DNA from: an uncultured Bacteroidota bacterium
GTDB lineage: Bacteria; Bacteroidota; Bacteroidia; B-17B0; Aurantibacillaceae
Direction: 5' to 3'
DNA: 64,000 bases
NCBI GenBank assembly: GCA_937873155.1
Contig: CALMVZ010000013.1
Coordinates: 186,001 to 250,000, forward strand
Within the stretch, counting starts at the first letter, position 1, and every line of letters begins with the position of its first letter. Below the pieces are notes generated by a model. The model was given only the letters and a program-made list of their open reading frames with translations. It was not told the origin of the DNA and made no database searches. Of this stretch, positions 15,619-46,852 are shown piece after piece. The position numbers were made by a program, and so were the translations under genes.

Positions 15619-18600
15619 TTAATTAACTTCTTCAACCAAATTTTCATCTACATACACGAGGATTTTTCTTACTGTAGTGTGTCCCATGCTTTGCAAAGCC
15701 ATTGCATATTTATTCATTTGTATGGCGTATTTTTTCGAATTGGGCTTCCCGGTCTTATAATCAATTACAACAGCGTGATCCTTTTCAAATACTATTTTAT
15801 CCGGGCGAAGTAATTCACCATGTTCAGTTATCATCTCTGCTTCATTCTTTGAAATGGCTGCCGGAGAAAAATAATTCACCAGTAATTTATTGGTAAGTAT
15901 AGATCTTATTTTTTCTTCCAGTTCAGGTTTTTCATCCTCAGTGATAATACCTTGTTTTAGCATGCTTTCCAGAACGGAAGGAACTTCTGTTAAGGTGTTG
16001 ATACCCGATAAAATATAATGCATCTTGATCCCCTTCTCACGTGCAATCTCACCCCGATAGCTATCGGGGTCGTCATGCAATTTTAATTTATGGCTGCCTT
16101 TTATTTTTATCAATCCGCTGTTTGAGTTAAAATGTAGTTTTGAAATATCAAAAGCAGTCAGCCCTGATCCAGATTCAGTAAGCAATTTATCTTGTAAAGT
16201 TCCTGACTGATAAAATTCATCGCTAACACCTATGTTATTGGTCAAAAAATCATTCAGCCAATCAGCAACAGTTTCGTGTTTTTGTGATTTTGACTTGAAG
16301 GCGATGATATGCAAACGTTCAACTGCCCGGGTAAAAGCTACGTAGAGCAAATTTAAATTATCAAGGTATTGTTCATTCTTTTCCTGCTCGTAAAACTGCT
16401 CTAAACCGGCTTCAGCTAAACCTTGTGTGAGATTGAAAAGACCAACGGGCAGAGGAGAGTCTGTTTCAGCCAAGTCAACCCAACCGGGGTTAGCTTTGTA
16501 AACTTGCCAATTGGTGAAGGGTAAAATTACTACAGGAAATTCAAGTCCTTTTGATTTGTGAACACTCATGATGCGTACTGCATTTGTTCCTTCAGGAATG
16601 ATAAGAGAGGCTTTTTCTTTCCGTTTATCCCACCAGTATAAAAAATCATTTACGGATCCTGTTTTGTTTACGAGGTAGTCATTCACCTCATCCAAAAAGA
16701 AACGGATATATTGTGGTTCCTTTTCTTCTAATTTTAAATGCGTAATGATCTCAATACAAATATCGAGGATATTTTTTTGATTGAAAGAATGTGAATCCAG
16801 ATCTATATGGAGTGTTCTTAAAACCCGGAACAAGTCTTTCGAGCGTACTAATTCTTTTATACTTCCTGAAAGGTTTTCATTAGTGGAAAGATAATTCAAC
16901 ACGACAGAGGCGCTGATATCATCAAACGGATCATTAATGTAAGTTAAGAACGAGGCCAGGCAATTGATCTCAGGATTATTTTTCAGAAGTAATGAATCAG
17001 ATGATATCACAGGGATCCCTGTTCCCATTAAGAAATTAGCGCAAAGATTCCCCTGGCGGTTGTTCCTTGCAATGATACAAATATCATTGTAACTGTATTT
17101 ATTCGCAAGTGCTTGCTGAATATGTTTACGGATCAATGTAAAATTCTCCTTGTCTAAATCGTCTTTTTCAAGCAGGCCGTGATGTAAACTTACATAACCG
17201 CCTTCGGCATGCCTGAATTTTTGTTGTTGGGAATTGTAAATACTTTTGAATTCTTCAGTGAGATACGCCCCTGGTAAAAAATTGAAAACATCATTATTGA
17301 ACTCAACAACATTCTTTAAACTCCGGAAATTAGTATCAAGCACTTCAGCTTTAAAATTTTGTTCAAGTGCAAATGCCCTTTCAGCGAGGATCTCATTTTT
17401 TTCTGCATTTTTCAATTCGGGCAAAACATTGAACTGTTGCACATTGGCATTCCGCCAGCGGTAAATACTTTGCTTGCCATCCCCAACTATTAAATTGTAG
17501 CGGCCGCTTGCCAGTGAGTTATCTATCAGTGGTAATAAATTCAGCCATTGAAGGGTAGAAGTATCCTGGAATTCATCCAGCAAATAATTAGAGTAACGTT
17601 CTCCCAGTCGTTCATAAATAAAAGGGGCAGGTTCTTCCGACACAACTTTCGCGATCTTTGAATTGAATTCAGAGATAAAAACAATTTGTTCTTCAGCCCT
17701 GAATTCTTCACTGATCTGTTGTAACTCGTTAACGAGAATGATCGAATAGATGTTTTTCTCTAATAAATTGAACAGGCTAAAACGGGTGGCATTTTCTTCA
17801 ATGAAAGTAATTGTTTCTGAGGCTATAGAATGTAATTGCGGTGCAATGCTATCGATGGCTGCATTTTCGGAAGCAGTGTTTTTATTATTATTCCATTTGT
17901 TCTTCGCAACAGCATCTTTTAATCTTGCACCTGTCAGTTCAGCAATTTTATCAAAATCAAAATTCGCCCATTTCCTGAATACGTTTTGCGGGCCCGTGCT
18001 TCCATAATTAAATTGGGCATCTTTCAGGTTCTTGCTTCTTATCAATTGTAAGGCTTCTTCACCTTTTTCTTTAACACGTTTTTTAAATCCTGAAGTGAAA
18101 GTGTGCAATTCCTTCTGAATGTCTTTTAATTGTTCCTGGCTATAACTTTTCAGCTTCTTAAGATTCAATTCGGCATCTTCCTTCTGTATGATCTCGGCGA
18201 ACTCCAGTAATTTGACCTCGGGATCCCAGGCATTGTTTTCTTCAGCATTATCAGACGAATACTTTATCAATAGATCGGTCAATTCTGAACTGTCTCCGAT
18301 CTTAGACATTAATCCTGAAACTACTTTCCGGTAAAATTCATTCGTGTTCATTTCAATACTGAAATTCACAGGCAGTTTCAGATCGAAAGCGAAGGTCTTT
18401 ACGATCTTATGGGTAAAACTGTCGATGGTACTTATAGAGAAGTCGGAATAGTTGTGCAGGATCTCATTTAAATTCAATTTAGCGCGTTCGATAAGGGTAC
18501 TAGTGTCAATTCCTGTTTCAGCACATATAAGATCGGTAATTGGCTTTGCTTTGGGTTTATTTTGCGAGATGAGTTTAAGGGCTTCAATGATCCTTAATTT

Positions 18601-45569: not shown

Positions 45570-46010
45570 ATGAAAAAGTTAGGAACCTTAGCAATCGGAA
45601 CACTGTTATTTTTTGCAGTGTCGTGCAACAAGAACAAAACATCGTTAGAACCGAAAACAGAAACATCTTATGCCGTCGCTCCTTCAGATATTCGTGATGA
45701 TGAGAATATCAATCACACCAACAGTACTTTAAGAATGGAGGAAAATGGGCCTGATACCAAAGTTCCTGTACGTGGTGTGCGTAATGATGAAGAAGTGAAT
45801 CCGTGGAATGATCACTTAAGAACAGAACAGGGTCCTGTGAAGAACAGAGTGCGTAACGATGAACAGGTAAATCCGAATACTCAAAGTGAGAAGAAGGGTG
45901 TACGCCCGCATAATGAGTACGAAATTCCAACTATTTATAATCCTTCAAAAATTGCAAAACCAGGGGTGCGTAACGATGAACAGGTAAATCCGAATACATC
46001 GGACTTGTAA
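45570..46010 (+). CDS. lipoprotein with VRNDEQVNPN repeats
   Basis: 146 residues. Signal MKKLGTLAIGTLLFFAVSC with Cys19 lipidated, then a disordered, acidic chain. A motif VRNDEQVNPNT recurs: IRDDENINHTN, VRNDEEVNPWN, VRNDEQVNPNT twice, and a weaker VRPHNEYEIPT. The repeats are 20-40 residues apart. No family recognised; the repeats could bind metal or a surface ligand. It is followed by a bidirectional terminator shared with the tRNA locus. Confidence 0.7.
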   Translation: MKKLGTLAIGTLLFFAVSCNKNKTSLEPKTETSYAVAPSDIRDDENINHTNSTLRMEENGPDTKVPVRGVRNDEEVNPWNDHLRTEQGPVKNRVRNDEQVNPNTQSEKKGVRPHNEYEIPTIYNPSKIAKPGVRNDEQVNPNTSDL

Positions 46011-46034
46011 ACCGATTATAAAATCTCTAAAATA

Positions 46035-46062
46035 AAAAACCCAGACAATTACCTGGGTTTTT
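46035..46062. terminator. bidirectional terminator between lipoprotein and tRNA locus
   Basis: The stem AAACCCAG/CTGGGTTT with an 8-base loop, flanked by A and T runs. On the minus strand it lies directly after the last tRNA-like CCA end, so it is probably the original terminator of the tRNA gene. Confidence 0.8.
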
Positions 46063-46065
46063 CTT

Positions 46066-46130
46066 TGGTAGCGGGAGGATGATTCGAACATCCGCCCTTC
46101 CTTTTTAGGGAAGGGTATGAGCCCAACGAG
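46066..46130 (-). pseudogene. partial initiator tRNA copy A
   Basis: On the minus strand it runs CTCGTTGGGCTCATA (3' D-stem, anticodon stem and loop with CAT), then a 21-base palindrome CCCTTCC-CTAAAAA-GGAAGGG at 46095-46115, then the intact T arm, 3' acceptor strand and CCA. The palindrome replaces 10 bases of the real tRNA (3' anticodon stem and variable loop). The 5' acceptor and D loop are missing. The stop codon of the GIY-YIG gene upstream lies in the hairpin loop. Confidence 0.8.
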
Positions 46131-46380
46131 TGATATATTCTTTTATTAATTCTTGTTTCTTATTTGAACCTCTTCCTGACTTGTAATATTTTTCTTTCTT
46201 TAATGCTTCGTCTTTTGTTTCGTAAAACTCCACATGAATCACACGCCAAGGTCTATAAAGCCTCGTGCTATCTTTTCCATAGAAATTATGAGAATAGAAC
46301 CTCTCTATCAGATTAGAGGTGAATCCAGTATAATTCCTTTTGCTTCTATTAGAGTAGAGAATATAAACTACATATTCCAT
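46105..46380 (-). CDS. GIY-YIG nuclease, copy A
   Basis: 91 residues: MEYVVYILYSNRSKRNYTGF with VYI and YTG in place of GIY and YIG, then the conserved Arg in LIERFYSHN, and the Glu-containing helix KDEALKKEKYYKSGRG. This is a small UPF0213-type GIY-YIG domain, a metal-dependent DNA endonuclease fold. The ATG at 46380 follows the T tract of a terminator. Its last residues T-R-W-A-H-T-L-P are read from the partial tRNA, and TAA lies in the inserted hairpin. Longer upstream frames only read through tRNA sequence. Confidence 0.8.
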   Translation of the reverse strand: MEYVVYILYSNRSKRNYTGFTSNLIERFYSHNFYGKDSTRLYRPWRVIHVEFYETKDEALKKEKYYKSGRGSNKKQELIKEYITRWAHTLP

Positions 46381-46384
46381 AAAA

Positions 46385-46419
46385 TAAAAAATCCGAGTCG
46401 TTTTAGACCCGGATTCTTC
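46385..46419 (-). terminator. terminator-like hairpin of cassette A
   Basis: Minus strand: ATCCGGGTC/GACTCGGAT, one G-T pair, then a T run. It lies just after a CCA end and just before the GIY-YIG start, so nuclease expression would require readthrough. Confidence 0.65.
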
Positions 46420-46421
46420 TT

Positions 46422-46486
46422 TGGTAGCGGGAGGATGATTCGAACATCCGCCCTTCCTTTTTAGGGAAGGGTATGAGCCCAACGAG
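46422..46486 (-). pseudogene. partial initiator tRNA copy B
   Basis: Same as copy A, 356 bases away, with the palindrome at 46451-46471. It serves as the 3' end of the copy B nuclease gene and is followed by cassette A. Confidence 0.8.
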
Positions 46487-46736
46487 TGATATATTCTTTT
46501 ATTAATTCTTGTTTCTTATTTGAACCTCTTCCTGACTTGTAATATTTTTCTTTCTTTAATGCTTCGTCTTTTGTTTCGTAAAACTCCACATGAATCACAC
46601 GCCAAGGTCTATAAAGCCTCGTGCTATCTTTTCCATAGAAATTATGAGAATAGAACCTCTCTATCAGATTAGAGGTGAATCCAGTATAATTCCTTTTGCT
46701 TCTATTAGAGTAGAGAATATAAACTACATATTCCAT
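46461..46736 (-). CDS. GIY-YIG nuclease, copy B
   Basis: Encodes a 91-residue protein identical to copy A, including the eight C-terminal residues read from the partial tRNA. It is the nearer copy to the intact tRNA, whose 3' end is 41 bases from its ATG. Identity at the DNA level implies a recent duplication or gene conversion. A longer frame starting at 46853 reads through the intact tRNA and is rejected as a start. Confidence 0.8.
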   Translation of the reverse strand: MEYVVYILYSNRSKRNYTGFTSNLIERFYSHNFYGKDSTRLYRPWRVIHVEFYETKDEALKKEKYYKSGRGSNKKQELIKEYITRWAHTLP

Positions 46737-46740
46737 AAAA

Positions 46741-46775
46741 TAAAAAATCCGAGTCGTTTTAGACCCGGATTCTTC
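46741..46775 (-). terminator. terminator-like hairpin of cassette B
   Basis: Same hairpin as at 46385, here directly after the CCA of the intact tRNA. It probably terminates the tRNA transcript. Confidence 0.65.
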
Positions 46776-46777
46776 TT

Positions 46778-46852
<75 letters not shown>

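Follow-up and report, generated by a model that had tools for sequence, protein, structure and literature searches.

The minus strand of the window, the whole stretch of 64,000 nucleotides analysed here, carries an intact initiator-type tRNA-Met(CAT) gene followed by two tandem units. Read along that strand, the order is intact tRNA, terminator, GIY-YIG nuclease gene, a 15-nt piece of tRNA, a 7-7-7 palindrome, the T arm, acceptor strand and CCA of the tRNA, and then the repeat. The features are as follows.

46778..46852, minus strand: intact initiator-type tRNA-Met(CAT) (ARAGORN; Rfam, 63.5 bits)
46807..46816, minus strand: site X, the 10 bases ACCCAAAGGT that are swapped for a palindrome in the copies (sequence comparison)
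46742..46771, minus strand: terminator A of the inner unit, 3′ of the intact tRNA (sequence; related terminators in the sister genomes G003 and G004)
46461..46736, minus strand: GIY-YIG nuclease gene, inner copy, 91 aa (Pfam PF01541, AlphaFold)
46472..46486, minus strand: inner tRNA arm of the inner plugged copy (sequence)
46451..46471, minus strand: palindrome (plug), inner copy (sequence; identical to the outer palindrome)
46422..46450, minus strand: outer tRNA arm (T arm, acceptor 3′ strand, CCA), inner copy (sequence)
46386..46415, minus strand: terminator A of the outer unit (sequence)
46105..46380, minus strand: GIY-YIG nuclease gene, outer copy, 91 aa, with its stop in the palindrome loop (ORF, Pfam)
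46116..46130, minus strand: inner tRNA arm CTCGTTGGGCTCATA (15 nt) of the outer plugged copy (sequence)
46095..46115, minus strand: palindrome (plug) CCCTTCC-CTAAAAA-GGAAGGG, outer copy (sequence; conserved in relatives)
46066..46094, minus strand: outer tRNA arm CGGATGTTCGAATCATCCTCCCGCTACCA, outer copy (sequence)
46034..46062, minus strand: terminator B, common to sister genomes (sequence, sister-genome comparison)

The two units are identical across a run of 390 bases with a period of 356, and the outer one ends in a terminator that differs from that of the inner unit. The first-pass annotation had located the outer copy alone of these two identical copies. The exact duplication may have arisen recently or may be an artefact of assembly in this draft genome; tandem arrays were also found at other loci and in other genomes. 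The sole Rfam match in the window is the intact, uninterrupted tRNA-Met, which we infer to combine a resident 5′ half with a 3′ half brought by an element. Terminator B, which sister genomes share, is the presumed original terminator of the tRNA. Just past it ends a small plus-strand ORF (45570-46010), predicted to be lipoprotein-like, in which VRNDEQVNPN-type motifs are repeated.

Comparison at the level of single bases confirmed that the palindrome at 46095-46115 substitutes for exactly 10 bases (ACCCAAAGGT) of a truncated initiator-tRNA copy, as first proposed, and that the T arm and CCA of the plugged copy are intact (46066-46094). The GIY-YIG ORF (46380-46105) does terminate in ...TRWAHTLP, with TAA within the palindrome loop. 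The first-pass annotation had taken this overlap of nuclease C-terminus and tRNA remnant as a sign of co-evolution, a claim that did not survive comparison, the overlap not being conserved among 58 copies of the 3′ type. Their ORFs end ahead of the tRNA copy in 28 cases, inside the inner arm in 13, inside the hairpin in another 13 and past the hairpin in 4, with every reading frame represented. Since the stop position varies in this way, the TAA in the hairpin is a trait of sublineages (those ending ...WAHTLP or ...GFISA) and not evidence of protein-tRNA co-evolution. A hairpin stop codon as a conserved device was likewise rejected, as it occurs in only 13/58 of these copies.

Related loci in sister genomes and at other tRNA genes

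The orthologous era/tRNA-fMet locus is empty in G001, in G005 and on a second era contig of G004. At the same locus, related elements that have a nuclease and CCCTTCC palindromes are present in G003 and G007; in G004 there are two plugged units from which the nuclease is absent, and G006 retains remnants. The outermost terminator, AAACCCAG...CTGGGTTT, is common to G000, G003, G006 and G007, and the outermost tRNA piece is therefore most simply the original, displaced 3′ half. The two era genes of G004 lie on separate contigs (L113, L118), one with plugged units and one empty; either the bin mixes strains or the gene is genuinely duplicated, and the empty contig may be a contaminant.

The same architecture, a nuclease and an intact tRNA accompanied, on its 5′ or 3′ side, by a palindrome-split partial copy of that tRNA (the nuclease sometimes being absent), was found at four tRNAs of the source genome, each with a nuclease and a palindrome of its own. 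Besides Met, these are Ser(gct), whose copy is of the 3′ type, and two tRNAs that have mirror-image copies on the 5′ side, Arg(acg) and Leu(gag). Altogether 8 clear and 2 probable plugged cases were counted among the 33 tRNA genes of this genome, about a quarter to a third. Targets across relatives include Arg, Leu, Ser, Val, Pro, Ala, Asp, His, Glu, Asn and others. A dedicated search of the relatives, with natural tRNA stems and terminators filtered out, gave 94 plugged copies, a few of them weak, at 64 loci with 55 distinct palindrome cores. The interrupted-copy finder matched 65/70 loci when given their own tRNA and 0/70 when given the tRNA of another isotype as a control. Furthermore, 52 of 102 GIY-YIG ORFs in relatives (a set in which some loci are counted twice) lie less than 400 bp from a tRNA, every one on the same strand. 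The inner arm has a median length of 11 nt in the 3′ type and 12 nt in the 5′ type. One tRNA-Asp (L046) is flanked on both sides by plugged copies, another locus (L077) has three tandem 87-nt plugged units, and the tandem copies reach ten in G142 and eight in G197.

In a 0.7-Mb Candidatus Shapirobacteria genome, plugged copies were found at tRNA-Glu, Lys and Ile, and in related small genomes 14/29 nuclease loci lie at most 200 bp from a tRNA, in every case on its strand. At several loci of these genomes (L285, L275, L293, L296), reading by eye revealed tRNA halves split by larger GC-rich inverted repeats, which exceed the size limit of the finder. In the Patescibacteria-type locus L285, at tRNA-Thr(tgt), a palindrome of about 40 bases lies in the anticodon loop of a partial copy with zero tRNA bases lost (TTTTG/TAAAC, the slash marking the insertion point), and a further palindrome lies in a neighbouring T-loop copy. 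Taken together, the units of plugged tRNA and nuclease look like an undescribed mobile-element family of many Bacteroidota and some Patescibacteria; in the open-access PMC literature, we found no description of GIY-YIG genes with split tRNA copies or palindromes.

The palindromes and the nuclease

In 40 Met-type copies from many Bacteroidota families (among them Flavobacterium, Olivibacter and Chitinophagaceae), the palindrome lies immediately 3′ of CATA, replaced by CTA or TTA in three copies, and immediately 5′ of C. All 240 scored stem pairs (six pairs in each of the 40 copies, which were selected for bearing one of the stem types TCCGCC/GGCGGA, TCCGTC/GACGGA, TTCGCC/GGCGAA and CCCTTCC/GGAAGGG) are Watson-Crick. 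Changes on both sides occur at four of the six pairs, namely 1 (T-A/C-G), 2 (C-G/T-A), 4 (G-C/T-A) and 5 (C-G/T-A), counts that overstate the number of events because the aligned copies lack independence and include tandem ones. In the alignment of related elements, the hairpin thus occupies one and the same place in the tRNA and its stems covary, as the first-pass annotation had predicted; because relatives keep it there, loss of the hairpin at homologous loci, which would have spoken against that prediction, was not what we found. Its further suggestion that the hairpin protects the copy or forms a recognition structure is possible from these sequences.

Among the plugged copies, stems are mostly of 6-9 bp and loops of 0-8 nt, including perfect dyads with a 0-nt loop. 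No G.T pair was seen inside a stem, a count biased by the scoring for Watson-Crick pairing. Since the stems have no G.T and the loops span 0-8 nt, a DNA-level inverted repeat fits better than an RNA-only hairpin. The variable spacing also suits a structure better than a rigid dimer site, and template-switch mutation or correction could be an alternative way of keeping the palindromes perfect. The hairpin site varies with the target tRNA (D loop, anticodon/variable region or T loop). The palindrome sequence does not track the nuclease lineage, the same palindromes occurring with differing nuclease clades and tRNAs.

The window nuclease belongs to the GIY-YIG superfamily (Pfam PF01541, 49.7 bits against a cut-off of 22.6). 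Its invariant residues, including the catalytic ones, are Y6, Y17, G19, R27, H31 and E63, and its AlphaFold model has a pLDDT of 93.9. By sequence and by fold, the closest solved structures are UPF0213 and the branched-DNA nuclease SLX1. SLX1 itself is no mobile element: together with its partner SLX4, it serves in the repair of junctions. In NCBIfam, neither the window nuclease nor the Arg-locus nuclease had a match, and the Leu-locus nuclease had nothing beyond a sub-threshold match to a group I intron endonuclease; PHROGs, PADLOC and a phage search gave no matches. Values of dN/dS were 0.02-0.16 for the pairs with a calculable dS, many pairs being saturated, which indicates that the protein is maintained by purifying selection. 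On a tree of 59 nucleases, the 18 groups of target plus site require 19 changes (minimum 17; shuffled mean 30.4), a count as low being reached in 0/200 shuffles; the search was seeded with Met-type proteins, which inflates the Met group and raises this association. Two Val sites, in the anticodon arm and the T loop, correspond to two distinct nuclease clades. As far as the sequences go, nuclease lineage tracks target tRNA and site, and this could be plain co-inheritance.

Palindromes also occur apart from the nuclease. The 16-nt core of TCCCGATAGCTATCGGGA was found 36 times in the source genome, against 0 for a reversed-pattern control. Some 27 copies were read, of which 7 have a link to a tRNA gene: D-loop plugs lacking a nuclease at Gly(tcc), Gly(gcc), Phe and Ala, one copy in the Leu(gag) element and two within the duplicated 3′ flank of Arg(tct). 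The remaining copies lie away from tRNAs, some apparently within genes (for example at 16051-16070 of the window), so that palindromes have some independent origin. In a gene for a YPNP-type C-terminal domain (L095/L103/L104), a palindrome of this type adds 18 bases in frame. A dispersed family for the window's own palindrome was rejected: the genome contains its 7-nt arms 6 times and the control 2 times, and two of the six are the window pair itself.

GIY-YIG genes of another lineage in the source genome, with no tRNA nearby, lie amid repeated palindromes of the type TGAGCTTGTCGAA or ATGCTGAC..GTCAGCAT at L002, L003 and L014 (also L006). These motifs number 6, 3 and 2 per approximately 3 kb at L002, L003 and L014, respectively, and 0 in the 64-kb window. 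The association of GIY-YIG genes with palindromes may thus be wider than the tRNA elements. At tRNA-Leu tag (L148) and tRNA-Gly tcc (L121), a repeat TTTATCCTGAGCTTG(T/C)CGAAGGA stands before 3′ tRNA remnants and is of the same type as the repeats around the non-tRNA GIY-YIG genes. Elsewhere in the source genome (L240, C12:366312), a RAYT-like Y1 transposase gene lies amid its own CCTCGGACTTTAGTCCGAGG- and AACCCCGGACTAAAGTCCGGGGTT-type palindromes, and is a candidate for an ordinary REP/RAYT system.

How the units may move

The best reading of these sequences is that the units probably constitute a family of tRNA-addressed, target-restoring mobile elements. A resident tRNA gene of the form A-B-X-C-terminator B would receive an element that supplies another 3′ half for the tRNA together with terminator A, the nuclease gene, a short inner arm B with a median of 11 nt, and the palindrome HP, after which the locus would read A-B-X-C′-termA-nuclease-B-HP-C-termB. 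The tRNA would be rebuilt from the resident 5′ half and the incoming 3′ half, and the resident 3′ half would be displaced outward and plugged by HP; in the mirror-image (5′) forms, the 5′ half would be duplicated instead. Exactly the 3′ form would result if the tRNA gene and a circle of the order B-HP-C-termA-nuclease underwent one crossover in the long arm; a mirror circle would give the 5′ form. The nuclease would stimulate this exchange by acting, in the manner of SLX1, on HP as a DNA-level cruciform or hairpin in the donor. The address would be set by the tRNA homology of the arms and not by sequence recognition by the protein.

Several lines of evidence argue for such elements: the architecture recurs at four tRNAs of the genome itself and at 64 loci of relatives with a mismatched-tRNA control of 0/70; a nuclease near a tRNA is always on the same strand, and the orthologous locus has empty and filled alleles with a shared outer terminator; the 40 Met-type plugs are all Watson-Crick with compensatory changes, and the nuclease tree tracks target and site; dN/dS is 0.02-0.16, plugged units free of nuclease exist, the nearest structures are UPF0213 and SLX1, and the stems hold no G.T. 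Counting against them are the possible co-inheritance of lineage and site, the template-switch route to perfect palindromes, the many palindromes away from tRNAs, and tandem arrays, which can grow by unequal crossover with no need of a nuclease. If the units are such elements, the palindrome could be the substrate of the nuclease, a role suggested by structural analogy that we favour tentatively because arms that serve as the address would spare the intact tRNA, which keeps site X; that it is a passive plug of a cut site ranks below this and is somewhat doubtful. A whole new mobility system, in which a single-domain SLX1-like GIY-YIG protein acts on a cruciform between tRNA arms, the arms give the address by homology, the tRNA is rebuilt, and the system is spread over Bacteroidota and Patescibacteria with nuclease-free units mobilised in trans, is a speculative proposal that may well fail in one part or another.

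Site X is fixed within each nuclease lineage while palindrome sequences are shared across lineages and tRNAs, and some palindromes are dispersed in the source genome. Both observations would suit classical homing, in which the GIY-YIG enzyme cuts empty tRNA genes at X and a palindrome from the genome's dispersed pool passively blocks recutting or back-conversion of the displaced copy. However, X is retained in the intact tRNA of every element, so that a classical homing nuclease should cut an essential gene of its own host, and the protein of about 85-91 aa is modelled as a single domain, apparently without a separate DNA-binding domain for a long target. We thus regard classical homing as unlikely. 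An RNA decoy, with type III-like addiction, would have transcribed plugged copies mimic the substrate and inhibit a tRNA-directed nuclease, whose cleavage site is swapped for an uncuttable hairpin. The plugged copies do lie in transcribed positions, some lack a nuclease, and at L046 and L077 tandem plugged units come before the tRNA, terminator and nuclease; yet the GIY-YIG/SLX1-like fold is that of a DNA nuclease family, and stems devoid of G.T pairs and perfect dyads with a 0-nt loop are unlike an RNA-only constraint, which makes the decoy quite improbable. Most improbable of all is that REP/RAYT-type palindromes moved by Y1 transposases entered duplicated tRNA pieces with the GIY-YIG genes as bystanders: dispersed palindromes are common and one of the four Y1_Tnp genes of the genome is ringed by its own, but 0/4 of these loci carry tRNA-copy palindromes (on which ground a RAYT origin was rejected), the palindrome position is fixed per nuclease lineage over many families, and the strand and proximity association of nuclease and tRNA is near absolute.

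Known systems and biological meaning

Integrative elements with tyrosine integrases use tRNA genes as att sites and restore the 3′ end on insertion. In contrast, the 356-bp (about 0.36 kb) unit described here has no integrase gene and codes solely for the GIY-YIG protein, which sets aside a tyrosine-integrase element; moreover, the displaced copy is split by a palindrome, and 5′ forms exist. A group I intron was discarded as the tRNA is intact and uninterrupted, and a type III toxin-antitoxin system as the fold is GIY-YIG/SLX1-like and tandem repeats occur at some loci only. REP/RAYT systems share small palindromes tied to one small DNA-processing enzyme, and copies free of that enzyme, but the enzyme fold here is another and the palindromes stand at fixed positions inside tRNA copies.

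A closer likeness is found in the fungal mitochondrial mORFs (Allomyces atp6; Glomus atp6, atp9, cox2 and nad3), endonuclease ORFs in conserved genes, of GIY-YIG type in atp9, which supply a replacement 3′ end and shift the native end downstream (PMC3630166). Since mORFs restore the target gene and displace its native end, the comparison "works like" is well founded. Here too a conserved gene has received a nuclease gene, with one of its ends duplicated and the native end displaced, and empty alleles occur in related genomes (G001, G005 and one G004 contig). However, mORFs reside in mitochondrial protein genes and not in bacterial tRNA genes, and are not reported to have a palindrome at the displaced junction or a mirror form that duplicates the 5′ end, both of which are present here (PMC3630166). 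The LIMP of Lobosphaera are short dispersed mitochondrial palindromes, discussed as DNA cruciforms or RNA stem-loops, but neither a nuclease gene nor split tRNA copies go with them (PMC4524435).

The plugged-copy arrangement is present in two distant phyla, Bacteroidota and Patescibacteria. If confirmed, it would add a class of tiny selfish elements, parasites of essential tRNA genes that nevertheless leave the host alive. Part of the many GIY-YIG genes that stand alone in Bacteroidota would gain a function, and some dispersed palindromes an origin. In these genomes, the ends of tRNA genes, ORF tails that resemble tRNA and incomplete tRNA copies would then be footprints of the elements. The system also makes it testable how a nuclease targets a gene that it must leave intact.
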